Positions 34,707-46,078 of a stretch of DNA of 64,000 bases are shown piece after piece. The notes beneath the pieces were generated by a model that ran no database searches, had not been told where the DNA came from, and saw only the letters and a program-made list of their open reading frames with translations. This DNA is from Streptomyces lavendulae subsp. lavendulae (GTDB taxonomy: Bacteria; Actinomycetota; Actinomycetes; Streptomycetales; Streptomycetaceae). Within the stretch, counting starts at the first letter, position 1. Every line of letters starts with the position of its first letter. The translations under genes were made by a program, and so were the position numbers. The DNA is taken from assembly GCF_002803845.1 (NCBI RefSeq), contig NZ_CP024985.1, forward strand, positions 7,575,501 through 7,639,500, in the 5' to 3' direction.

Positions 34707-34731
34707 CCCGTCCACCAGCCGGGTGGACGGG
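34707..34731 (-). terminator. Terminator of the azasugar-type operon
   Basis: Perfect 10-bp inverted repeat CCCGTCCACC / GGTGGACGGG with a 5-nt loop, 38 bp past the stop of the last gene (34769) of the minus-strand operon. It marks the likely downstream limit of that cluster. Confidence 0.7.
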
Positions 34732-34768
34732 TATCACCGAAAGGCGGCTCGCCGTACGGGGCCCGGTC

Positions 34769-36139
34769 TCAGTCGGCGGCGGAGGCCGGATCGTCGAGTT
34801 CGTGCAGACCCGCCGGGTCCTCGTCGGTCAGCAGCTCCCCGGCCGCCGTGACGAAGCGCTGGGCGTGGCCGCGGTGGACGCAGAGGAGTTGGTCGCGGGT
34901 GCCGGTCCGGTCCCGGTGCACGGCCAGCGCCGGACCGTACTTGCTGCTGTGACCCGGCATCGCGGTGTCCGTGCTCCATCCCGTGCCATCGAACGCGGAC
35001 CACCACAGCTGCTGGCGGGCGGGGTCCCGGTGGACGCACATCAGCGTGCCGTCGAAGACGGCGAGGCCGATGTTGCTGCGGGTACGGTGGCCCGGCAGTG
35101 CGCCCTCGGACGTCCAGGCGGTGCCGCGCAGCCTGGCCCAGTGGATCGCCCCGTCCTTGGGGTTGCCGTACAGCAGGTGCAGGTCGCCGTCGTACACGGC
35201 GAGCGCCGGGGACCTCGTGGTGGCGCAGCCGGGGACGGGTTCGGGGGTCGTCCAGCCGAGGCCGTCCCGGCTGGTGGTGACCATGATCCGCTGGGCGGCG
35301 TCGGCGTAGGCGAGGTGGAGCGCGTCGTCGAAGACGGCCAGCGCCGGGCCGTAGACGCTCTCGGCGTCCGGGACCGGCCGGTCCGGCGTCCAGGTACCAC
35401 CGTCGTAGGAGGTCAGTGCCATGCCCCAGTCGCCCGAGCCGCCGCGGTGCGCGCAGTACAGGCGGTCCTGGAACACGGCCAGGGCCGGGCTGCCCAGGGT
35501 GTGGTGGGCGGGGAACGGCTGGTCCTCGGACCAGCCGCCGTCCGCGCGGTGTGCGGTCCACCACAGGTCGGGGTCATCGCCCCGGCCCTGGTAGACGCAG
35601 TACAGGTCGTCGCGGAAGACGGCCAGGGCCGGTGTTTCGGAGGCGTAGCGCGCCGTGAACTGGACGTCGGCCCCCCAGCCTCCGCCCGGTTCGAACACGC
35701 TGAACCACAGGCCGGTCTCGCGCGGTGGCGCGTCGAGGGCCACGGGGGCGAGGAGGGTGGGCGCGGACCACGGCGAGACCAGCTCGCACCCGGCGCCCCG
35801 GGTGGCCGCCCCGATCCGTCCGGCCCGTCCGGCCAGCCCCGCGCCGACGGTTTCGGCGAGGGCCTCGGGCAGGGAGCCCGCGAGCACTTCCTCCACCAGG
35901 CGGGGGAAGCCGCCGTCGGACCCGGAGCGGTCGGGGCGTGCGAGGCGGTCGGCGGCGCGCTGGTCGAGGCGGAGGGCGAAGCCCCATTCCAGCAGGCGGA
36001 CGGAGACGGCCGCCCCCGCCGCGGCGAGCTCCTCGCCCGCCCGTTCCGCGTTCTCCACGGCCTTGGCCGACGGAGCGTCCGTGCCGGACTCCGGTGCCCT
36101 GCCGCTCTGCCGCCCGGGGGCGGCGCCTTCGATCGCCAT
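34769..36139 (-). CDS. Beta-propeller lectin-like protein
   Basis: 456 residues from ATG 36139 (GGAG upstream). An alpha-helical N-terminal region (about 1-120) precedes at least six repeats of about 45-48 residues built on the pattern PALAVF-x-D-x-L-x-C-V-x-R, LWW, then a DG-x-W turn and a PGH-type loop. The repeats resemble PLL-type or tectonin-like lectin propellers. Such folds bind sugars. No signal peptide is seen, so it is probably cytoplasmic. It is the last gene in the operon, 88 bp after the MOSC gene. Its role could be to bind the sugar product or a polysaccharide; it might also be a passenger gene. Confidence 0.7.
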   Translation of the reverse strand: MAIEGAAPGRQSGRAPESGTDAPSAKAVENAERAGEELAAAGAAVSVRLLEWGFALRLDQRAADRLARPDRSGSDGGFPRLVEEVLAGSLPEALAETVGAGLAGRAGRIGAATRGAGCELVSPWSAPTLLAPVALDAPPRETGLWFSVFEPGGGWGADVQFTARYASETPALAVFRDDLYCVYQGRGDDPDLWWTAHRADGGWSEDQPFPAHHTLGSPALAVFQDRLYCAHRGGSGDWGMALTSYDGGTWTPDRPVPDAESVYGPALAVFDDALHLAYADAAQRIMVTTSRDGLGWTTPEPVPGCATTRSPALAVYDGDLHLLYGNPKDGAIHWARLRGTAWTSEGALPGHRTRSNIGLAVFDGTLMCVHRDPARQQLWWSAFDGTGWSTDTAMPGHSSKYGPALAVHRDRTGTRDQLLCVHRGHAQRFVTAAGELLTDEDPAGLHELDDPASAAD

Positions 36140-36227
36140 GCTGTCTCCTGCCTGCTGGGCCGCCGCCGGGCCGTGGGCCCGCGGGCGAGGGATGCGGAAG
36201 AGGTCGGGGTGGGTGTCCTTGCCGCCC

Positions 36228-36779
36228 TCAGGGAAGGTCGGACGCAACGGGGGGTACGAGCTGCCGCGCGTCGTGCGGCAGCGGGAGGATCGGGTCGCCC
36301 ACGCGGATCGTCCCGCCGCGGACCACCTCGGCCCGCAGGCCGCCGCGGTGCAGCAGGCCGCGGATCAGGCCGGGGCGGACCAGTTGTTCGAGGCGGGCGC
36401 AGGGTTCGCTGAGTTTGAGACCGCGCAGGATCACCGTGCCGATCCGGAACTCCCTGTCCACGAGCGGGTTGAGCCGGATCCCGCGGCAGACGAGGTTGCG
36501 CCGGCATTCGGCGGGGGTGAGCGTGATGCCGTCTTCGCGGGCCAGGGCCTCCAGCACCTCGGCCTCGATGAGGGTGACGTCGCAGACCCCGGACGCCCGG
36601 CCGGCGCCCCGGCGCCGGGGCCTGGGTCCCTCGCCCGCCCAGTAGTTGCGGTCCCCCGCCAGCCCGCGGCCGGTCACCGCGCGGGCCCGTGCCACGCGGA
36701 AGGTGGGATCTCCGGTGCGCGCGGCGAGGTGCAGGGAGGCGACCCGGCCGGTTCCGTGGGGCGGCGCGGTCTGTGCCAT
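36228..36779 (-). CDS. MOSC-domain protein
   Basis: 183 residues, a stand-alone MOSC domain. Family features: GRGLAGDRNYW (about 38-48), ECRRNLVCRGIRLNPLV (about 91-107) and the conserved Cys in LSEPCARLEQL (about 123-133), the usual thiol ligand of the molybdenum cofactor. MOSC proteins (YiiM, YcbX, mARC) reduce N-hydroxylated compounds or carry sulfur. Its ribosome binding site (AAGGAG) overlaps the end of the carrier-protein gene, so it belongs to this operon. Beside an AurF-like oxygenase it may act on an N-oxidised intermediate; that is inference. Confidence 0.85.
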   Translation of the reverse strand: MAQTAPPHGTGRVASLHLAARTGDPTFRVARARAVTGRGLAGDRNYWAGEGPRPRRRGAGRASGVCDVTLIEAEVLEALAREDGITLTPAECRRNLVCRGIRLNPLVDREFRIGTVILRGLKLSEPCARLEQLVRPGLIRGLLHRGGLRAEVVRGGTIRVGDPILPLPHDARQLVPPVASDLP

Positions 36780-36786
36780 GGGCGGT

Positions 36787-37020
36787 TCACTCCTTCAGGA
36801 AGTGATCCGTGAGGGACCGAAGGGTGCGGAACTGGTTCACGTCGATCTGGTCGAGCCGCAGTTCCCGGCCGATCAGGTCCTCCAGCATCAGGATGAACTC
36901 CATGAAGCCGAGGGAGTCGATCAGCCGGTTCTCGATCAGGTCGAGGTCCTCCGGTATCTCCTCGACGGTGGGGTTGTGTTCGCGCAGCCAGTCCACGACC
37001 GGCTTGATCGCGTCGTCCAT
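36787..37020 (-). CDS. Acyl/aminoacyl carrier protein
   Basis: 77 residues. A four-helix carrier protein with the phosphopantetheine attachment serine in LIDSLGFMEF (Ser36). Acidic overall (helix 2 and 3: EDLIGRELRLDQID), as expected. ATG 37020 is used; GTG 37026 is also possible. It sits two genes downstream of the amino acid:carrier-protein ligase gene, the arrangement known for that ligase family, where a dedicated carrier protein is aminoacylated on its pantetheine thiol. It probably holds the amino acid while the oxygenase and flavoenzyme of this operon act on it. Confidence 0.9.
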   Translation of the reverse strand: MDDAIKPVVDWLREHNPTVEEIPEDLDLIENRLIDSLGFMEFILMLEDLIGRELRLDQIDVNQFRTLRSLTDHFLKE

Positions 37021-37027
37021 GGTCACG

Positions 37028-38038
37028 TCACCTCTCCTGGATCCGGTGCAGCTGTCGGGAGCCCCTCGGGGGCCGGTGCGCGCGCTCGTACTCCAGGCGG
37101 ACCCGGGCAACGGTGACGGCGGCCGGGTGCGGGGCGGTGACGCGGGTGCAGGACCGGCCGCAGTACATGGCCATCTCCTCGATGCGGCCGGTGGTGGCCT
37201 CGCTCGGAGCCGCCGCACTGTAGCGCGGTACCGGGTACGCCCGGCCGTCCACCCGGGTGGTGGCCAGGAAGGTGGCCGGGGCGCGCTCCGAGGTGCCGGT
37301 GAGGGGGTTGCGCAGGACGCGGTGCGGGCGGTTCGGCCAGCCGATGTCGAAGAGGGAGGTGATGAGGGTGTCGTCGGCCACGGCCTCGACCACCCGGCGT
37401 TTGAACTTCGGGTGCGCGGCGGATTCCGCGGCCGGGACGAACAGGGTTCCGGCCATGGCCCCGTCCGCGCCGCGCGCCACGGCCTCCGCGAGGTCCTTCC
37501 CGGTGGCGATCCCGCCCGCGACGGCCAGGACCGCCTGCGGGTGGCGGGCCCGGACGGCGGCCAGCAGGAGGTCCACGGGCAGTCGGCCGAGCAGGTGGCC
37601 GCCGGCTTCGGTGCCCTGGAGGACCAGGACCGCCGCGCCCCTGCCGAGGGCCGTGTCGGCGTCCGCGGGGGTGCCGACCTGGACCACCAGCGGGTGTCCG
37701 GCTGCCCGCACGGCCCGGGCCGCGTCGGTGTCGGGCAGCCCGAAGGAGGTCACGAAGCAGCCCCGGGGCAGTTCGGGCAGGACGGCCCGGAGCTGGTCCA
37801 GGCAGCCGGCCGGCCCGGTGACCTCGGGAACCACGTTCACCCCGAACGGGCGGCCGGTGGCGGCCGCCACCTCCCGGACCAGCCGGGCGGCCCGCCCGGG
37901 CGCTTCCCTGTACAGCGCGAGGGTCCCGCCCGCTCCGGCCCGGGACACCTCGGCGCACAGTCCGGGTCCGGCGACGGCGCCCATTCCGGCCTGGAGCAGC
38001 GGCAGTTCGAGCCCGAGCCGGGCGGCCAGCCGGGTCAC
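37028..38038 (-). CDS. FMN-dependent enzyme, nitronate monooxygenase/enoyl reductase family
   Basis: 336 residues from GTG 38038, overlapping the ligase stop (GTGA). A TIM barrel of the NMO/2-nitropropane dioxygenase family: LPLLQAGMGAVAGPGLC, the flavin-side VLQGTEAGGHLLG with the conserved His, and the phosphate-binding VAGGIATGKDL and GAMAGTLF. The C-terminal extension (about 250-336) is Arg-rich and unlike standard NMO. Relatives oxidise nitronates (NMO) or reduce enoyl thioesters (FabK, PfaD). Coupled to the carrier-protein system, it could act on a carrier-bound substrate. Which reaction cannot be decided from sequence. Confidence 0.82.
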   Translation of the reverse strand: MTRLAARLGLELPLLQAGMGAVAGPGLCAEVSRAGAGGTLALYREAPGRAARLVREVAAATGRPFGVNVVPEVTGPAGCLDQLRAVLPELPRGCFVTSFGLPDTDAARAVRAAGHPLVVQVGTPADADTALGRGAAVLVLQGTEAGGHLLGRLPVDLLLAAVRARHPQAVLAVAGGIATGKDLAEAVARGADGAMAGTLFVPAAESAAHPKFKRRVVEAVADDTLITSLFDIGWPNRPHRVLRNPLTGTSERAPATFLATTRVDGRAYPVPRYSAAAPSEATTGRIEEMAMYCGRSCTRVTAPHPAAVTVARVRLEYERAHRPPRGSRQLHRIQER

Positions 38039-38901
38039 GAGCGTTCCCCTGCCCGCAGCACCGCGCGGTGCGCGGCGGCCAGGTCGCCTTCGAAGAGGTC
38101 GCCCAGGACGTGCACCCAGCGTTCCAGGCCGAAGGCGACGCAGCCGGTGAACGCCGGCCGGCCCGCGTGGCCGATGGCGCGCCGCTCGCCGAAGAAGTTG
38201 CGGTGGTTGTTGGTGGAGGCGACGGCGGTGCCGTCGGTGTGCAGGTACTCCTCCTTGACCGGGGCGAGCACCTGCATGACGGAGCGGGTGCCGTCCTTCT
38301 CGAAGAACGGGTCGGTGGCCGGCTGCCGGTCCAGGGTGAGGCCGAGGGCCGTGCCGAAGGCGAGGATCCGCTCCCGGTGCCGGTCCAGGTGGGTCCGTAC
38401 GGCCTCGGCGGAGCCGACGCACACGATCTCCCGCATGGTGAACCCCCAGAGCCTGCGCAGCCCGTCGTGATGGTCCTCGTTGCGGAAGCACTGCGCGGCG
38501 GTGGTGATCAGTACGGGGGTGTCGGCGCTGGTGCCGGTCAGGTGCAGGAAGCAGCCGTAGCAGGCCGCGGAGGGCAGCATGTGGGTGGCGTCGGCCAGCT
38601 CGGCCGCGGGCAGTGCGCCGGCCCCGGACGGAGCCCCGGCGAGGCCGGCCAGCCGGTCGGGGCGGATCCGGGTGACCGGGCTGCCCAGGTGCGGGAAGTT
38701 GCGGAAGTAGTCGAGGGACCGCAGGTCTTCGGTCCGCAGCAGCGGCGGGTAGCTCTGCTGGCGGGCCCCGGCCTCGGTGGCCCAGCGGGTGAACACCGTG
38801 TCGAGTGCGTTCCTCAGCAGGACGGCGGGCTCGTCGAAGGTGGCCAGTCCGTCCCGGACCGACCAGGTGGTCCCGGTCGCCGTGGGGTCAGTGACGGGCA
38901 T
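38035..38901 (-). CDS. Amino acid:[carrier protein] ligase (SerRS-like class II enzyme)
   Basis: 288 residues: a class II aminoacyl-tRNA synthetase catalytic core without tRNA-binding domains. Motif 2 is FRNEDHHDGLRRLWGFTMRE (Arg140, Glu142) and motif 3 is GLERW (Arg261). Cys114, Glu158 and Cys254 have nearly the spacing of the zinc ligands in atypical SerRS and in the Bradyrhizobium amino acid:[carrier protein] ligases, which activate glycine or alanine and load them on a carrier protein. A carrier protein is encoded two genes downstream. It overlaps the oxygenase gene by 14 bp and the flavoenzyme by 4 bp. Glycine or alanine is the expected substrate; this is from family knowledge. Confidence 0.88.
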   Translation of the reverse strand: MPVTDPTATGTTWSVRDGLATFDEPAVLLRNALDTVFTRWATEAGARQQSYPPLLRTEDLRSLDYFRNFPHLGSPVTRIRPDRLAGLAGAPSGAGALPAAELADATHMLPSAACYGCFLHLTGTSADTPVLITTAAQCFRNEDHHDGLRRLWGFTMREIVCVGSAEAVRTHLDRHRERILAFGTALGLTLDRQPATDPFFEKDGTRSVMQVLAPVKEEYLHTDGTAVASTNNHRNFFGERRAIGHAGRPAFTGCVAFGLERWVHVLGDLFEGDLAAAHRAVLRAGERS

Positions 38902-39811
38902 CGAACACCCCGATCCGGTGGAGGAAGTCGGTGGTCTTGCGCAGGACCTTGGCGTGGGCCGCCTGCCGGGCCGGGTGGGCGAGCAGCCGTCCGCGCAGCG
39001 CGAATCCGTTCGCGAGGCCCGCGTCCCGGTAGACGGCCGGGTTGTAGAAGGACTCCATGCTGGTGGTGATGTAGCGGCCGAGATAGCTGCGCAGTTCGAG
39101 CCGGGCCGTCTCGTCCAGGCCGCCGTCGAGGAGCCGCTGCCACAGCAGTTGCACCAGGCGGCAGCCGAAGGCGATGTGCCGGGACTCGTCCTGGTGGTGC
39201 AGCCGGTTGATGTGCCGGATGGTCGCGTGCAGGCGGCGGTCGGCTGCCAGCTGGACGTTGTAGTGGTCGACGATCTGCTCGAAGATCAGGATCCGGGCGA
39301 ACACGAGGAAGTTCTCGACGTCCGGGTCGCGCGGGGCCTCCGGAAGTCTGACCGACTTGTCGGGGTAGATCTTGTCGGCGTACTTGAGGCAGAAGGTGGC
39401 GAAGAACCACATGTGGTCGTTCTCCTCGCCGATGAAGTGGTGGAAGAACTCGGAGGGGAGCTCGAAGCCGGGTGTGTGGACGCGCCGGGTGACCTCGATG
39501 AGCAGTTCGCGGATTCCGTGCACGTTGAGGCTGTAGAAGTTGACGCTCTCCCACCGGCCCAGTGCCCGGAGCTGGGCCGGGCTCAGTTCGTCGAACAGCT
39601 CGGTCCCGTGGACGGAGAGCAGTTCGGGGGACATCCAGAGCCCGTCGGTGGGGATGGCGGGCGGCCAGTCGAAGGTGGTGAACGGGTTGTAGTAGTCCGC
39701 GGTGGCCTTGTCGGAGAGCCGGTCGAGCAGGACCCTGAACTCGGTGTCGTCCGCCGTGGCGGTGCCGGCCGCCGCGGCGGGCGGGGTGTTCCGGGGATGC
39801 ATGTGCGTCAC
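38888..39811 (-). CDS. AurF/CmlI-like diiron oxygenase
   Basis: 307 residues, helical, ferritin-like. All likely iron ligands are visible: Glu88 (RWESVNF), Glu130 and His133 (EENDH), Glu178 (LIFEQIVDHYN), His205, Glu209 and His212 (HHQDESRH). The extra His matches the seven-ligand site of AurF, the p-aminobenzoate N-oxygenase, and CmlI. Such enzymes oxidise amines to hydroxylamine or nitro, and CmlI-type pathways use carrier-bound substrates. Its start overlaps the phosphatase stop (ATGA) and its end overlaps the ligase start, so the three are coupled. A likely substrate is the aminoacyl-carrier thioester; oxidation at nitrogen or at the alpha carbon are both possible. Confidence 0.85.
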   Translation of the reverse strand: MTHMHPRNTPPAAAAGTATADDTEFRVLLDRLSDKATADYYNPFTTFDWPPAIPTDGLWMSPELLSVHGTELFDELSPAQLRALGRWESVNFYSLNVHGIRELLIEVTRRVHTPGFELPSEFFHHFIGEENDHMWFFATFCLKYADKIYPDKSVRLPEAPRDPDVENFLVFARILIFEQIVDHYNVQLAADRRLHATIRHINRLHHQDESRHIAFGCRLVQLLWQRLLDGGLDETARLELRSYLGRYITTSMESFYNPAVYRDAGLANGFALRGRLLAHPARQAAHAKVLRKTTDFLHRIGVFDARH

Positions 39812-40764
39812 TCCTTCCAGCGGACGGCCGACAGCAGGGCCCGGTGGAGTTCGGGGGTGGACGCGGCCACGCAGGACCGCTGGTTGTCGATGCTCAGGTC
39901 GGTCAGTACGGTCTCGCCGAGGGGCTGTCCGTAGCCGTCGGTGATGACCGCTCCGGCCCGCTCGGCGAGGAAGACGGCCGCCGCGATGTCGTACGGGAAC
40001 AGGTGCAGGACCCGGCCGTTGCCGACGCGCTCGAACTCGGGCAGCAGCGCCGGATCGTCGCGCAGCAGCCGGTTGCCGATGTCCACGTACGCGTCGAGCT
40101 GGCCGGTGAGCAGCCGGGAGATGGACCAGGTGGCGCTGTTGAAGACGAAGACCCCGCCGGTGTTGGCCGAGCGGTCGACGAGGTGGCCGTAGGCCTCGGT
40201 CATCAGGCGGGCCGGGTGGCCGTTGAACTCCAGGGACCAGAACATCCGCGCGGGGTCGGTGGTGCGGGTCAGTGCCGGGACGGGGTGGTCGTAGCCGTGC
40301 GCCGTGATGCCGGGCGTCGCCAGGTCCCCGTAGAGGTAGGCGCCCGTGCGCAGTTCCATGAGCAGCGCGTGCTCGACGTCGGCGATGCGCGGGCGCTGTG
40401 ACATACGGGCGACGGCGACCGAGACGGTGGCCGACTCCAGGCCGGCGACGGCGGGCCGGGTGCCGTCGATGGGGTCGACGACCAGCAGGTGGGAGGGGTC
40501 CGTGCCGTGGTACTGCAGGCCGCGGTCCTCGGAGTAGACGGCGACGGGCAGGTCGTGACCGACGACGTACTTCCAGACGGCGGCCTCCGCGACCTCGTCG
40601 AGGCCGAACTGGGCGTCCCCGCCCGGCGAATGGCCCCGGACGAGGCGACTGCCGGCCCGGTGCCGGGCGGCCAGCACGGCCTCGCGGACGGCACCGGCGA
40701 GACCGGTCGCGTACCGCCGCCAGGCCGCGGCCCCCGGCGGGCGGCCGTGTGCGGTGCCCGTCAT
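39808..40764 (-). CDS. Inositol-monophosphatase-like phosphatase
   Basis: 318 residues from ATG 40764, overlapping the aminotransferase stop (ATGA). The metal site LLVVDPIDGTRPA (Asp97, Asp100, Thr102) is the IMPase signature. Motif C is LFPYDIAAAVFLAERAGAVITD, with Tyr in place of the usual Trp before Asp. The first metal motif is VYSEDRG rather than GEE, so it is a divergent member. In azasugar gene sets such as Bacillus gabT1-yktC1-gutB1, a phosphatase of this family removes phosphate from the aminated fructose-6-phosphate product. That role fits this operon. Confidence 0.88.
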   Translation of the reverse strand: MTGTAHGRPPGAAAWRRYATGLAGAVREAVLAARHRAGSRLVRGHSPGGDAQFGLDEVAEAAVWKYVVGHDLPVAVYSEDRGLQYHGTDPSHLLVVDPIDGTRPAVAGLESATVSVAVARMSQRPRIADVEHALLMELRTGAYLYGDLATPGITAHGYDHPVPALTRTTDPARMFWSLEFNGHPARLMTEAYGHLVDRSANTGGVFVFNSATWSISRLLTGQLDAYVDIGNRLLRDDPALLPEFERVGNGRVLHLFPYDIAAAVFLAERAGAVITDGYGQPLGETVLTDLSIDNQRSCVAASTPELHRALLSAVRWKE

Positions 40765-42083
40765 ACGGCGGCCTCCGCGGCGAACAGGGCTTCGAGCCGG
40801 TCGCAGAGCAGATCGGCCTCGGCGCGGGTGAGGATCAGCGGCGGGCGGATCTTGATCACGTTCCCCCGTCCGTAACGTGAGGTGCGCAGGATCAGGCCGT
40901 GGTCCATGCCGCGCCGGGCGAGGGCCTGGGCGCGTTCGCTGTGCGGGCGGCCCGCGTCGTCGCCGATCTCGATCCCGATCATCAGGCCGAGGCCCCGTAC
41001 GTCCACGACGGCGGGGTGCGCGGCGGCCAGTGCGCGCAGCCGTTCCATGATGTGGGCGCCGACCTCCCGGACGTTCTCCAGGAAGCCGGGGCGGCCTATC
41101 ACGTCGAGGGTGGTGGCCGCGGCGGCGGCGGCGAGTACGTTGCCGCCGTAGGTGAAGGAGTGGTGGTCGCTGCTGAGCCCGGACATCCGCTCGTCGGCGA
41201 CGATGGCCGCGATCTGGGCGCCGGAGCCGCCGAGTCCCTTCGCGGTGGTCAGGATGTCGGGCCGGACCCCGTAGTGCTCGGCGGCGAACATCCGGCCGAC
41301 CCGGCCGATGCCGGTCTGGATCTCGTCGAAGACGAGAGCGATGCCCCGTTCGTCGCACAGGGCGCGGAGCGCGGGCAGGTAGCCGTCGGGGGGCACGATG
41401 TTGCCGCCGCTGCCGGAGACCGGTTCGACGACCACGCAGGCGACGCTGCCGGAACTGGCGTGGTCGAGGAAGTCGTTGATGCGCTCGACGCAGAGCATGC
41501 CGCAGCTGTCGGGGCCCGCCTGGCGGTAGAAGCACCGCAGGCAGTAGGGGTCGGGGACCTGGAGCACGCCGGGCATCAGGTGCGGGAACGGGGCCTTGCG
41601 GAAGGACTCGCCCGACATGGTCGTCGTCATCATGGTCTGGCCGTGGTGGCTGCGGAACAGGGTGATGACGTCGCGGCGGCCCGTGGCGAGCTGCGCCATC
41701 TTGACCGCGCCCTCGTTGGCGGTGGAGCCGCCCGACACCTTGAGGTGCACCTTGGTCAGGTTCGGCGGGGTGACCTCGACCAGCCGCCGGACCAGCTCGT
41801 TGACGGGGGCGGTCTGGAAGGCGGAGGTGGTGTGCACCAGCCGCTCGACCTGGTCGCGCATGGCCTTGACCACTTCGGGGTGCCCGTAGCCGAGGCTCAG
41901 GTTGAAGGTGCCGGACGCGCAGTCCAGGTACTCGTTGCCGTCGGTGTCGTACAGGTGGACGCCTTCGCCGTGGTCCATCTCGTATGCGCTGACCGGGTAG
42001 TACAGGTGGTTCTGCGCGTAGCTCAGGGCATCGGCGCGGACGTCGCTCTGCGCATCGCATCGGGCGCGCATGAGATCGGCCAT
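40761..42083 (-). CDS. Class III (GabT-like) PLP aminotransferase
   Basis: 440 residues from ATG 42083 with AGGAG upstream. PLP Lys282 in LTTAKGLGG; DEIQTG at 253-258 binds the cofactor ring; GSTANEGAVK (about 119-128) holds the phosphate-side residues. A short Cys-rich insert (YCLRCFYRQAGPDSC, about 180-194) is present before the large-domain core. Members of this class transaminate GABA, ornithine and also sugar ketones. In azasugar pathways GabT1 aminates fructose-6-phosphate at C2. The coupled phosphatase and the nearby dehydrogenase and fructokinase make that role likely here. Confidence 0.88.
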   Translation of the reverse strand: MADLMRARCDAQSDVRADALSYAQNHLYYPVSAYEMDHGEGVHLYDTDGNEYLDCASGTFNLSLGYGHPEVVKAMRDQVERLVHTTSAFQTAPVNELVRRLVEVTPPNLTKVHLKVSGGSTANEGAVKMAQLATGRRDVITLFRSHHGQTMMTTTMSGESFRKAPFPHLMPGVLQVPDPYCLRCFYRQAGPDSCGMLCVERINDFLDHASSGSVACVVVEPVSGSGGNIVPPDGYLPALRALCDERGIALVFDEIQTGIGRVGRMFAAEHYGVRPDILTTAKGLGGSGAQIAAIVADERMSGLSSDHHSFTYGGNVLAAAAAATTLDVIGRPGFLENVREVGAHIMERLRALAAAHPAVVDVRGLGLMIGIEIGDDAGRPHSERAQALARRGMDHGLILRTSRYGRGNVIKIRPPLILTRAEADLLCDRLEALFAAEAAV

Positions 42084-42186
42084 GTTTCTCCTGTCGACTT
42101 CCGTCCCGCGGACACGGCGGACGGCGGATATCGAAATCTCCGGGCATCGGACTAGAGGGTTCCCTGCGGGATTTTGTGGCCTGATT

Positions 42187-42714
42187 TCACAGCTCCAGGA
42201 CGAAGGTGAACGCGGCGTCCCAGCCGTCGGGCGTCTCCCGCACATCCATCAGACATTCTGGCCGGAAATACTTGTCGAGGTGGTTTCGGCGTTCCCCGGG
42301 GAAATACAGCATCGTGGTCAGTACGGCTCCGCCGGGAGGCTGTACCTTCACGTGCACGTGCCGCGTCCGCCCCGGGTACACGGCGGGCAGCACCGTCTCC
42401 AGACGCCACCGCCCCTCGGCGTCGGCGAACTGGTGGCCGCGCAGCCGAAAACCGTCGTCGTCGTAGACCCCGGCGTCTCCGACCTGCCAGAAGTCGAGCA
42501 GGGTGCCGCCGATCGGCTTGCCCTCGGGGGTGCGCACGGTGCCGTGCAGCAGCATCGGAACGCCTCCCGCCACATCGCCCCGGAAGCTGGTCCTGCAGGG
42601 GGTGTCGGGCTTGTAGTACGGCCCTTCGCGCAGGGCGGGCGTGGGCGGCGTCCCGTTGCAGCGAACGGTCGGCGTGAGCGTCTTCAGGACATTTTCCGGA
42701 CTTCCGTTCTCCAC
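42187..42714 (-). CDS. Intradiol ring-cleavage dioxygenase-like protein, short form
   Basis: 175 residues, shorter than catechol dioxygenases, with the C-terminal beta-sandwich only. Visible: GPYYKPDTPCR near the start (iron Tyr), the carbohydrate-like LHGTVRTPEGKPIGGTLLDFWQ, GVYDDDGFRLRGHQFAD, and RTRHVHVKV with two His. The Tyr/His iron-ligand set of the family seems retained. No aromatic substrate genes are near, so the protein may have been recruited for another oxidative cleavage or as a structural protein. It lies 103 bp upstream of the aminotransferase gene in the same direction. Confidence 0.78.
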   Translation of the reverse strand: MENGSPENVLKTLTPTVRCNGTPPTPALREGPYYKPDTPCRTSFRGDVAGGVPMLLHGTVRTPEGKPIGGTLLDFWQVGDAGVYDDDGFRLRGHQFADAEGRWRLETVLPAVYPGRTRHVHVKVQPPGGAVLTTMLYFPGERRNHLDKYFRPECLMDVRETPDGWDAAFTFVLEL

Positions 42715-42964
42715 GGCGGAATTCTCCCTTGGTCAAGGATCTTCGCTTCCGTCGAGGCACCCTAACCGGCATTCCCGATGTTGAGAAGAAGGCCCCGTGC
42801 CACCTCTTCGCCATTTGTTGGACGCCTATTGCCGGGGCTTCCGTGATCCGCGCGAACAGCAGTTGTCTCCTGGGAATAGAGCGGCGCGCGGGGCGAATGG
42901 GACAGGGAGCGATCGGTGGCAGGCGCTCGTCCGCGTGCTCGGCCGCGCGCTCGTCCGGCCGTAT
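42715..42964. other. 250-bp gap within the azasugar-type cluster
   Basis: Separates the kinase-like gene (stop 42965) from the dioxygenase-like gene (start 42714), both on the minus strand. It is noticeably less GC-rich than the genes around it (ATTCCCGATGTTGAGAAG, CATTTGTTGGACGCC), as expected for a promoter. A minus-strand TAGGGT near 42762 could be a -10. No gene or clear terminator is seen. It probably divides the cluster into two transcripts. Confidence 0.35.
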
Positions 42965-43966
42965 TCAGTTCCGGTCGGCTGCGGACCGGCGCAGCACGGC
43001 GCGGGCGCGGGCGAAGTAGGCCGGGTCGGGTGGCGCGGTGAGGATGTCGGCGAGCGCGAAGAGGTCCAGTGTCCGGCTGAGCCGCAGCCAGTCCACCGGC
43101 AGTCGGCCGTTCCCGCCGCGGAAGCCCTCGACGAAGCCCGCGGTGAAGGCCGGCGGGTACTCGTGGGCGAAGCGCAGCATGTTCCCGACGTCGAAGAGCG
43201 GGGAGCCGCTGAAGGCGAGCTCCCAGTCGAGCACGGCGGCCACCGCCCACTGCCCGTGACGCCGTTGGACCAGGACGTTCTTCGGGTTGAAGTCACAGTG
43301 CACCAGGCTGCGTTCACCCGCCACGGCGGCGAGTGCCCGGGGCCCCCGGCGGGCCAGGGCGCGCAGTGCGGCCGCGTCCGTCCGGCTCAGCGGCCCGTCC
43401 GCGGGCGAGGTCGCCAGACAGCGTTCGACGAAACCGGGCAGGTCGCCCAGCGGGGCCGCGCCGTCCGGGGCCGGGACCAGCGAAGAGTCGCCGAAGGTGC
43501 CCGGGCGGGGCAGCCGGACCCGGCCGATCCGTGCCAGCACCGCGCCGACGGCCCGGCCCAGGGCCCGCGCCTCGCCGCTCACCGGGCCGTCCGCGAGCAC
43601 CTGGCTGAGCGGGGTTCCGTCCACGAACCGGTAGAGCAGGGTGGGGCGCCCGGTGACCCGGCCGTGCGGATCGGCCGCGACCACCGCGGTCACCGGGACG
43701 GTACCGGCCGCCGCCCGGCCGAGGACGGCGACCTCCACCGCACAGGTGTTGCGCGGGACCCGGCTGCCGCTGGGCCGGTAGCGGCGCAGCACGTAGCGCT
43801 CCGCGCCCGGCGCGTCGGCGGGCTGGGCCGTGAGCAGGGCCATGTCGTTGGTGAACCCGCCGGGCAGCGGGTCCACCTCGTGCAGCCGGGCGCCGGGCAG
43901 GGCGTGCCGGGTCAGCCAGGCGCGGGTGGCGGGGTCGAGGAGGCCCACCGGATCGGGGCGCGTCAC
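42965..43966 (-). CDS. Aminoglycoside phosphotransferase (APH) family kinase
   Basis: 333 residues from GTG 43966. Bi-lobed kinase fold: the nucleotide loop DPLPGGFTNDMALL, the catalytic loop LVHCDFNPKNVLV (His-x-Asp-x4-Asn), and VLDWELAFSGSPLFDVGN with the metal-binding Asp. Family substrates include aminoglycosides, choline, homoserine and sugars. Inside this cluster it could phosphorylate the iminosugar or an intermediate, either as a biosynthetic step or for self-protection during export. It lies 31 bp after the fructokinase gene, in the same transcript. Confidence 0.88.
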   Translation of the reverse strand: MTRPDPVGLLDPATRAWLTRHALPGARLHEVDPLPGGFTNDMALLTAQPADAPGAERYVLRRYRPSGSRVPRNTCAVEVAVLGRAAAGTVPVTAVVAADPHGRVTGRPTLLYRFVDGTPLSQVLADGPVSGEARALGRAVGAVLARIGRVRLPRPGTFGDSSLVPAPDGAAPLGDLPGFVERCLATSPADGPLSRTDAAALRALARRGPRALAAVAGERSLVHCDFNPKNVLVQRRHGQWAVAAVLDWELAFSGSPLFDVGNMLRFAHEYPPAFTAGFVEGFRGGNGRLPVDWLRLSRTLDLFALADILTAPPDPAYFARARAVLRRSAADRN

Positions 43967-43997
43967 AACGGCCAGCCTGCCCGGCCCGGTACCGTCC

Positions 43998-44948
43998 TCA
44001 TGCCTGCGTTCCCCCCGATGGTCCAGGGCCGGACGACGGCCGCTGCCGCGCGGCGGCGGCCGCCCCGGCCGCCAGGACCAGTCCGCCCGCCGCTCCGGCG
44101 AGGCGGCCGAGCAGGGCCGGGACCACGAACTCCTCGGCCGCGTGCTCGGGCAGCCCGGGGTATCCGGCCAGCGCCGTGGCCAGCTCGGCGCGGAGCAGCG
44201 GGAACAGCCCGGGGAGCTCCGCGACGCCGCCTCCGATCACGATCCGCTGGGGCGCGGTCGTGTAGACGATGTTGCGCAGCCCCGCGGCGAGGTAGGCGGC
44301 CTCCAGCCGCAGCGCCTCGCGCAGGGTTTCGCCGGTCAGCTCTTCGGCCGGCGTCCCCCAGCGGGCGCCCATCGCCTCGCCGCCCGCCAGCCCCTCCCAG
44401 CAGTCGCCGTGGAAGGGGCAGGAGCCGGGGAAGGCGTCGCCCGCGATCCGGGGCACCGCGAGGTGGCCCATCTCGGTGTGGACCAGGCCGCTGACCACCC
44501 TGCCGCCGATCACCGCGCCGCCGCCGATGCCGGTGCCGACGGTGAGGTAGACGTAGGTGTCCAGGCCGCGCGCCGCGCCCCAGCGGCCTTCGCCGAGGGC
44601 CGCGCCGTTGACGTCGGTGTCGATGCCCACCGGCACGCCGAGCGCGGCGGCTACCGGACCGGCTACGTCCACCCCGGACCAGCCGGGTTTGGGGGTGGCG
44701 GCGAGGTGGCCGAAACTGGCGTGGTCCGGGCGCAGTTCGAGGGGCCCGAAGGAGGCGATGCCGATCGCGTCCAGCGGGCCGGTCGCGGCGGCGGTCTCCT
44801 GGAAGAAGGCGATGGCCCGGGCCAGGGTGGGACCCGGTGCGCCGGTCGGGAACCGGATCTCGGCCTCGATCCGGTCGGGGGCCGAGCCGACCAGGCAGAC
44901 GAACTTGGTCCCGCCGGACTCGATCGCCCCGAGCCGCGGCGCGTTCAC
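43998..44948 (-). CDS. ROK-family fructokinase
   Basis: 316 residues from GTG 44948, overlapping the dehydrogenase stop (GTGA). The N-terminus GAIESGGTKFVCLVGSAP is that of BsFrk-type fructokinases. ROK features: LTVGTGIGGGAVIGGRVV, HTEMGHL, and the zinc-binding stretch CPFHGDCWEGLAGG. The Glu-Gly end of the zinc motif is typical of fructokinase rather than glucokinase. Phosphorylation of fructose gives fructose-6-phosphate, the substrate expected for the aminotransferase of this cluster, so it may supply the precursor. Confidence 0.88.
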   Translation of the reverse strand: MNAPRLGAIESGGTKFVCLVGSAPDRIEAEIRFPTGAPGPTLARAIAFFQETAAATGPLDAIGIASFGPLELRPDHASFGHLAATPKPGWSGVDVAGPVAAALGVPVGIDTDVNGAALGEGRWGAARGLDTYVYLTVGTGIGGGAVIGGRVVSGLVHTEMGHLAVPRIAGDAFPGSCPFHGDCWEGLAGGEAMGARWGTPAEELTGETLREALRLEAAYLAAGLRNIVYTTAPQRIVIGGGVAELPGLFPLLRAELATALAGYPGLPEHAAEEFVVPALLGRLAGAAGGLVLAAGAAAAARQRPSSGPGPSGGTQA

Positions 44949-46078
44949 GCGTCCACCGGCCAGCCGTCGGCGCCGACCGGGCCGGGGTGCGAGCGGATGA
45001 CGACCTTGAGCGCGGCGTAGCCCGGTGGCCGTCCGGTGCCGTCGTACCCGTCGTCCTGGGTGAGACCGCCGAGCGCGGCGAAGGCCTCCGCGTGACGGCC
45101 GAGCGGGAACTCGTGCGTCACCAGCCGCTCCAGGACCGGTACGGTCCCGGCGCCGGCACCGGGTCGTCGCGGGCCGCCCAGCTCGGCGGCCAGGTCCACG
45201 GCGACCGGGAAGATGTCGGCCCGGTAGTCCCCGGCGCCGATCAGCCGGATCCCCCGGTTGGTGAGCCGGAGCGGGTGCAGCGGCACGGTGTAGGTGTCGT
45301 CGAAGCCCATGACCACGACGCGGCCGCCGTCGTCGACCAGCCGTAGCGCCGCGTCGAGGCCGGTGCCGGTGGTGTCGAAGACGACGGAGGGCCGCTCGCC
45401 GCCCGAGGCCTTCACCACGGCTTCGGCCGGGTCCGTACCGGCCACGTCCACCACGTGCGTGAACTGTTCGCGGGCCTGCTCCAGCCGGTAGCCGTCCGGT
45501 TCGGCGACGGTGACCCGGCGCGCCCGGCGGGCGGCGACGAGTGCGGTCAGCATCCCGATCGGGCCCGCGCCCAGCACCACCACGGTGTCGTCGAAGGTGA
45601 CGGAGGCGGACTCGACGTTGTTCAGGACGCAGGCGAGCGGCTCGATCAGGACCGCGCTGCGGAAGGGCAGCCCGGCGGGGATCCGTTCGACGAAACGCTC
45701 CGGCAGGGTCACGGCCTCCGCGTACGTACCGTCCCGGTCGACGCCGACCTCCGTCCCGGCCTTGTGACGGCAGAAGTTGGTCGCACCCCGACGGCACGGA
45801 ACGCACCACCCGCAGTACAGCGTGGGGTTGACCACCACCCGGTCCCCGACCCCGACCGACCGCACCTGCGGCCCGGTCTCCCGCACCACACCCACCGACT
45901 CGTGCCCGAGCACCACGCCCGGCCGGGCCGGGAACCGCCCGAGCAGGATCTTGCGGTCCGTCCCGCAGACCCCCGTACCGGTGACCTCGACCACGACGTC
46001 GTCACCGTTCACGAGTCGGGCGGCGGGCCGGTCCTGCAGTTCGGCGGAGCCGGGACCCAGATACACGAGAGCGCGCAC
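44945..46078 (-). CDS. Zinc-dependent medium-chain alcohol dehydrogenase (GutB-like)
   Basis: 377 residues from GTG 46078 with GGGAGG upstream. Catalytic zinc residues Cys38, His59 and Glu60 (VCGTD; GHESVG); structural zinc cysteines 89, 92, 95 and 103 (CGWCVPC...C). Rossmann motif VVLGAGPIGMLTALVA. The layout resembles sorbitol and glucose dehydrogenases. In azasugar gene sets the GutB1-type enzyme oxidises the primary alcohol of the amino-polyol so that it cyclises to nojirimycin or mannojirimycin. It is the first gene of the minus-strand operon; the 273 bp upstream (46079-46351) shows no gene. Confidence 0.88.
   Translation of the reverse strand: MRALVYLGPGSAELQDRPAARLVNGDDVVVEVTGTGVCGTDRKILLGRFPARPGVVLGHESVGVVRETGPQVRSVGVGDRVVVNPTLYCGWCVPCRRGATNFCRHKAGTEVGVDRDGTYAEAVTLPERFVERIPAGLPFRSAVLIEPLACVLNNVESASVTFDDTVVVLGAGPIGMLTALVAARRARRVTVAEPDGYRLEQAREQFTHVVDVAGTDPAEAVVKASGGERPSVVFDTTGTGLDAALRLVDDGGRVVVMGFDDTYTVPLHPLRLTNRGIRLIGAGDYRADIFPVAVDLAAELGGPRRPGAGAGTVPVLERLVTHEFPLGRHAEAFAALGGLTQDDGYDGTGRPPGYAALKVVIRSHPGPVGADGWPVDA

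Follow-up and report, generated by a model that had tools for sequence, protein, structure and literature searches.

Azasugar three-gene clusters and glycine-nitronate cassettes are the described systems closest to the locus analysed here, which lies in a stretch of 64,000 nucleotides from Streptomyces lavendulae subsp. lavendulae (contig NZ_CP024985.1, positions 7,575,501 to 7,639,500; G000:C1:7575501-7639500 in our coordinates, in a genome of 8.93 Mb and two contigs). This whole stretch is called the window, and positions without a prefix are counted from its first nucleotide. Its minus strand carries a conserved block of eleven genes, A to K (36228-46078), which would make an iminosugar carrying an oxidised two-carbon (C2) unit from glycine, a reading to which a probability of roughly 0.65 is given.

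The three-gene clusters hold gabT1, yktC1 and gutB1, for an aminotransferase, a phosphatase and a dehydrogenase (PMC8382821, PMC8466323; statements on papers cited by accession refer to their accessible parts). The azasugar aminotransferases have the consensus SGNXFRXXXFPNXXXXXXXLXVPXPYCXRC (PMC8382821). "Disordered" gabT1/yktC1/gutB1 clusters are found in 41 Streptomyces genomes, and most of the genes interleaved in them are of APH, ROK, intradiol-dioxygenase or sugar-nucleotide/NAD(P)-binding types (PMC8466323).

Glycine-nitronate cassettes have in common with the window, at the family level and as far as the accessible descriptions go, a diiron oxygenase, a carrier protein, an amino-acid loading enzyme and a nitronate-processing enzyme. 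In the study of He and Ryan, glycine is reportedly activated on the carrier protein and converted by the diiron oxygenase to a nitronate, which alternative cassettes are said to denitrify. A split between O-methylation and denitrification of glycine nitronates is described in PMC9967187, which cites He and Ryan 2021 (doi 10.1038/s41557-021-00656-8). The cassette of the window differs in being joined to an iminosugar core, and He and Ryan 2021 may include cassettes of this kind; the union of an iminosugar half with a glycine-nitronate half, and its product, are not described in the literature accessible here.

Gene content of the block

Twelve intact reading frames occupy the minus strand between 34769 and 46078 and are lettered from A, at the 46078 end, to L, at the 34769 end. 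The first eleven form the conserved unit, and L, the twelfth, is clade-specific. Gene content, homology, conserved catalytic residues and joint inheritance were observed directly. The genes of the conserved unit, with lengths in amino acids (aa), are:

A, 44945..46078, minus strand: zinc-dependent alcohol/polyol dehydrogenase (GutB1-like), 377 aa; Pfam ADH_N 7.5e-25
B, 43998..44948, minus strand: ROK-family sugar kinase, fructokinase-like, 316 aa; Pfam ROK 2.5e-52
C, 42965..43966, minus strand: APH-family phosphotransferase, 333 aa; Pfam APH 2.4e-30
D, 42187..42714, minus strand: intradiol-dioxygenase-like protein, 175 aa; Pfam Dioxygenase_C 2.4e-15
E, 40761..42083, minus strand: class III aminotransferase (GabT1-like), 440 aa; Pfam 1.8e-94
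F, 39808..40764, minus strand: inositol-monophosphatase-family phosphatase (YktC1-like), 318 aa; Pfam Inositol_P 2.2e-14
G, 38888..39802, minus strand: AurF/CmlI-type ferritin-like diiron oxygenase, 304 aa; Pfam AurF 6.3e-28
H, 38035..38901, minus strand: amino acid:[carrier protein] ligase, seryl-tRNA-synthetase-like, 288 aa
I, 37028..38038, minus strand: flavin mononucleotide (FMN)-type nitronate monooxygenase (NMO), FabK-like, 336 aa; Pfam NMO 3.8e-33
J, 36787..37023, minus strand: acyl carrier protein, 78 aa; Pfam PP-binding 2.7e-4
K, 36228..36779, minus strand: MOSC-domain protein, 183 aa; Pfam MOSC 1.9e-9

The names of A-J stand at the family level only, because no NCBIfam match listed passes its curated cut-off. 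The scan covered A-J, with the best 25 of 69 matches for E; among the matches listed, none for A, B, D-F and H-J passes, and C and G have none. The best match of B is the fructokinase ScrK (203.5 bits, under its cut-off of 400), and H matches NF005479 with 112 bits, under its cut-off of 357. H has no Pfam match and resembles the Bradyrhizobium-type ligase Bll0957 in the PDB (3mey, 8.7e-24). D matches 4ilv (8.8e-49) and 4ilt (1.2e-47), K has no meaningful PDB match, and J, with 21.5 bits, lies narrowly over the PP-binding gathering score of 20.8.

The candidate catalytic residues of D, G, I and J are conserved. Tyr34, Tyr113, His119 and His121 of D, which we take to be candidate iron ligands, are invariant in 16/16 sequences, as are the Asp-Ser-Leu motif of J and Cys127 of the SEPC motif of K. 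His148 of the EAGGH motif of I is invariant in 14/14.

The sugar half

E falls in a clade with the azasugar aminotransferases of canonical clusters (support 100/100), in a tree that holds no Bacillus reference and in which L046, the own copy, bears no label, and the rows of the A-K clusters form one group (99/95); in this and all other trees, near-duplicate rows were removed only when identical. E carries SGESFRKAPFPHLMPGVLQVPDPYCLRC, which is a variant of the azasugar consensus with E for N (SGE instead of SGN), H for N and a spacer two residues shorter than the printed one. The PYCxRC element is absent from all seven paralogues of E in its own genome, and it is absent too from five azasugar-type aminotransferases of the Kitasatospora genus (L158-L162), each of which stands beside an F-like phosphatase; as judged from sequence, the azasugar signature is not universal. 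The scan patterns included the peptide ANEGAVKM, which is invariant in 16/16 cluster aminotransferases.

A shares 45-49% identity over most of its length with the dehydrogenases of three azasugar-type clusters (L006, L142 and L146) and joins them in its tree with support of 97/94, where the cluster rows form one group (98/94); its best own-genome paralogue is a partial match of 36%. F shares 57-58% identity with phosphatases encoded next to other azasugar-type aminotransferases and has no second match in its own genome. E, F and A span 6.3 kb (39808-46078) and have B, C and D between them. The original prediction had named an azasugar-type aminotransferase, dehydrogenase and phosphatase, and all three assignments are supported, the first two by well-supported clades with enzymes of the canonical three-gene clusters and the third by the identity of F to the phosphatase of these clusters.

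Compared with the three-gene clusters, the window has eight extra conserved genes and the gene order A-B-C-D-E-F, not E-F-A. The APH, ROK and intradiol-dioxygenase types interleaved in the disordered clusters (PMC8466323) are those of C, B and D, so this sugar half was already noticed earlier, and the disordered clusters very probably represent the same sugar half as that of the window. The accessible disordered-cluster section of that paper makes no mention of a diiron oxygenase, ligase, monooxygenase, carrier protein or MOSC gene.

The composition of the E clade weighs against a simple transfer of function. The sister group of the cluster rows has nine rows, of which three are canonical and six are without an F or A homologue (by locus L007-L009 and L096-L099, as far as the fetched stretches reach), and nine more rows of the wider clade are without an F homologue. 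ValM of validamycin biosynthesis also belongs to the same network cluster as the azasugar aminotransferases (PMC8382821). Because the clade is impure, an azasugar product is not proven by the position of E alone.

The glycine half

PDB sequence and profile searches with G found no AurF, and a structure model (pLDDT 86.9) and a fold search were therefore used. The best folds are CmlI (5hyh, Z 21.6, 3.3 A over 267 residues) and AurF (2jcd, Z 21.2, 4.1 A over 286), with ribonucleotide reductase subunits and related oxidases below them at Z 16 to 18. A match to indole-3-glycerol-phosphate synthase (0.0005), which was the only phmmer hit of G, was taken as chance. Glu85, Glu127, His130, Glu175, His202, Glu206 and His209, which are candidate metal or active-site residues, are invariant in 25/25 homologues of G. 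Four of the steps between them equal those of Dob3 (E-H +3, E-H +27, H-E +4 and E-H +3), and two are unequal, with 42 against 36 and 45 against 58 (Dob3 residues from PMC13061610).

G, H and J recur together outside the block. In 19 other AurF stretches, hand-picked from the G matches of a survey of 394 genomes, the G-H-J trio is found in 18, L130 being without J. An LCM-type methyltransferase accompanies the cassette in 11 of the 19 stretches and an I homologue in five, both in none and neither in three; the exclusivity has a Fisher p of 0.005 with relatedness ignored, and agrees with the split between O-methylation and denitrification (PMC9967187). The A-K block has I and no LCM methyltransferase, so its cassette is of the denitrifying kind; in one of the ten cluster stretches (L136) a 41% LCM match lies past K, at a distance of about 5 kb. 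In the G tree, the NMO-type cassettes from outside the cluster are placed next to the cluster rows with weak support (82/65), a placement that the H tree does not show.

These findings revise the original prediction of the glycine half. A carrier-protein amino-acid oxidation module is indeed present and is inherited together with the sugar half; direct oxidation of loaded glycine to an oxamoyl unit is not the reaction to which it points, and it matches instead a glycine-nitronate cassette with a nitronate monooxygenase.

Two further observations concern the other cassettes. The genome of the window has a second trio cassette (L113, G000:C1:2136500-2156000), which is one of the 19 stretches, with homologues of an LCM methyltransferase, another methyltransferase, MaoC, S-adenosylmethionine synthetase and PfkB, which is a candidate O-methyl-nitronate (enteromycin-like) cluster. 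The NMO-type cassettes L115-L118 have in common an ABC-transporter-like gene pair and a protein of 400-500 aa; when the copies of L118 were scanned, the transporter-like pair matched ABC_tran and the 400-500 aa protein had no Pfam match.

Distribution and joint inheritance

In named genomes, an E scan found 45 loci, of which 11 reach at least 62% identity. A-K are present in order in all seven named relatives of the subtype, namely Streptomyces sp. TSRI0281, Streptomyces sp. ADI95-17, S. goshikiensis, S. niveus, Kitasatospora griseola, Kitasatospora sp. CB01950 and Protofrankia coriariae, and the eleven-gene cassette is thus spread over three genera. Among the rest of the 11 loci, that of S. 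malaysiense holds E, F and A alone, and L007-L009 each have at most two of the queried genes. In P. coriariae, E (L010:4361-5643) is split into two frames, either by a sequencing error or as a broken gene.

Among 394 Streptomycetaceae genomes, 11 have an E of at least 75% identity, and the same 11 have a G of at least 70%. The other G matches, among the best four or five candidates scored per genome, reach 59% at most, except for one partial match of 62%, and none of the 394 genomes has a same-subtype form of one half alone. All of A-K are present, in the same order, in nine of the ten cluster stretches from this family sample, which overlaps with the named-genome set, and the tenth is cut at B. 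A close form of F occurs in 5/70 genomes of the genus of G111, taken to be Kitasatospora, and all five have the block. Of 396 genomes sampled across the phylum, three have a G match, all of them of the genus of the window. Three genomes (G248, G372 and G148) have the block together with a second E-like gene at 66%, and resemble in this S. nojiriensis and S. subrutilus (PMC8466323).

Protofrankia groups with the two Kitasatospora in each of the four trees (E, G, H and A), and S. niveus forms a pair with G144 in three of them (E, G and A), a pairing that is not resolved in the H tree; group statistics of the G and H trees rest on few rows, since many cluster loci and almost all of the remaining cassettes were unlabelled under second locus numbers, and their clades were read from the trees themselves. 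In the flanks of 13 relatives and the window, no gene group except L is common to more than two; the neighbourhoods are rough, as the gene caller was simple and at some points chose antisense frames.

That the halves are two unrelated pathways which became neighbours by chance is suggested by the 19 stretches where the trio occurs without E or F, and is nevertheless very improbable, given that close forms of both halves are found in the same 11 of 394 genomes, that the E, A, G and H trees have their main groupings in common and that flanking genes are not conserved. Since the order of A-K is kept in relatives while the flanking genes vary, their co-occurrence goes beyond chance. The block is probably a self-contained and horizontally mobile cluster; it is a real composite pathway, each half of which resembles known gene sets, with a predicted product.

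Proposed pathway and product

Every reaction of the pathway, glycine as the amino acid and the product are predicted from the genes. B would supply fructose 6-phosphate, which E would transaminate at C2 and F would relieve of its phosphate to give a 2-amino-2-deoxyhexitol. A would oxidise the far primary alcohol, and the resulting amino aldehyde would close to a piperidine of the mannojirimycin or nojirimycin type. In parallel to the sugar steps, H would load glycine on J, G would oxidise glycyl-J at its amino group, which gives the nitronate nitroacetyl-J, and I would denitrify the latter, with glyoxylyl-J and nitrite as products. The ring nitrogen would then take up the C2 unit, which would be oxidised again, perhaps through D and/or K, while C may phosphorylate an intermediate as a pathway kinase or protect the host. 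The general idea of the original prediction, an iminosugar with an oxidised small acyl unit, is thereby retained, and for its chemistry a glycine-nitronate cassette with an azasugar core is the better description.

The nitrite of the I step gives rise to a different proposal, in which the cassette makes nitrite from glycine and the nitrite nitrosates or diazotises the iminosugar amine. Nitronate monooxygenases release nitrite, and enzymatic nitrite serves diazotisation in other pathways (PMC13061610). Against this, no ATP-dependent diazotising ligase is recognised in A-K, and the outcome is considered very unlikely.

The late steps of the C2-decorated iminosugar pathway speak against it most. 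No clear enzyme is seen for the conversion of glyoxylyl-J to product, which is the main weakness: no condensation domain or acyltransferase for transfer of the C2 unit onto the sugar is recognised in A-K, and a condensation-domain protein is present in 3/5 of the other NMO-type stretches (L116-L118). D and K are also without an assigned step. For lack of a clear enzyme here, a carbon-carbon alternative is retained, in which the carbon of nitroacetyl-J would add to the cyclic imine in a nitro-Mannich reaction and I would then convert the nitro carbon to a ketone, so that the product would be a new kind of iminosugar, branched at C1. This route needs no acyltransferase, and nitroacetyl thioesters are acidic carbon nucleophiles; the block has no enzyme with an obvious fold for C-C bond formation and we know of no precedent for such a route, which is considered unlikely.

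If the C2-decorated iminosugar reading is kept, its product may be kifunensine or a member of an undescribed class. Kifunensine is an oxamide-bridged D-manno iminosugar, and its formation needs a D-manno iminosugar and an oxidised glycine-derived C2 unit. In this special case, the glyoxylyl unit, or an oxime of the glycine unit that retains the nitrogen, would acylate mannojirimycin, a second nitrogen would close the imidazolidine and D or K would bring the second carbonyl to the amide level. The presence of the block in all five genomes of the presumed Kitasatospora genus with a close F agrees with this proposal. On the other side, kifunensine keeps nitrogen on its C2 unit, which the denitrifying NMO route would lose. 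Kitasatospora kifunensis is not among the named E-scan matches, its presence in the collection being a point that could not be checked; little weight attaches to this absence, as two species with disordered clusters, S. nojiriensis and S. subrutilus (PMC8466323), are missing likewise. Among the papers that literature searches listed, none was about kifunensine biosynthesis genes, and there is thus no gene set to compare with. Kifunensine, which the original prediction had named, is compatible with the parts of the pathway, provided that a nitrogen from outside completes its second ring, and is the best single named candidate, and it is as yet a doubtful identification.

The product may also, as a tentative possibility, belong to an undescribed iminosugar class, where the carrier-bound glycine nitronate or the derived glyoxylyl would be built into the ring system and the steps of D and K would be unprecedented; to our knowledge, intradiol-dioxygenase-like and MOSC enzymes have no precedent in such iminosugar steps.

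Operon layout and flanking features

Three features lie between or beyond the genes of the conserved unit:

C/D intergenic gap, 42715..42964, minus strand: partly conserved among close relatives, in an alignment judged by eye only
Gene L, 34769..36139, minus strand: repeat protein of 456 aa with repeats of the type PALAVFxDxLYC, propeller-like by eye
Perfect hairpin after gene L, 34707..34731, minus strand: stem of 10 bp, 100% complementary, loop of 5 nt

In transcription order and by coordinates, A/B, E/F and H/I overlap by 4 bp each and G/H by 14 bp, and gaps separate B/C (31 bp), C/D (250 bp), D/E (103 bp), I/J (4 bp), J/K (7 bp) and K/L (88 bp); F/G has a gap of 5 bp, or an overlap of 4 bp if an upstream GTG is the start of G. 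The close packing of twelve minus-strand genes, as originally described, is seen at 10/11 junctions, which overlap or are under 110 bp, and is broken by the 250-bp C/D gap, which may be the site of an internal second promoter. Upstream of D (42715-42964) and upstream of A (46078), close Streptomyces relatives have conserved blocks that are promoter-like by eye and possibly represent two co-regulated promoters. A scan for sigma-70-type promoters found none.

The twelve genes are all present, but they do not form one unit, as L lies outside the conserved A-K. L is found in 3/7 named-genome clusters and in 7/10 cluster stretches of the family sample, in the clade closest to the window, and was rejected as a pathway member on account of this clade-specific occurrence; it is probably outside the pathway. 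It has no Pfam match and no PDB sequence match. The perfect hairpin proposed for the operon end is confirmed at 34707-34731. As a proven terminator it was rejected, since it is without a T run and was absent from the output of the terminator scan; the only site reported there is a different one, on the plus strand, against 2.4 expected.

Significance of the composite cluster

Iminosugars mimic sugars and are drug leads and glycosidase-blocking tools, and kifunensine is widely used for N-glycan control. The A-K block is a concrete candidate for the making of oxamide-bridged or otherwise C2-decorated iminosugars and, if the proposed reading is true, it would give a purpose to denitrifying glycine-nitronate cassettes.

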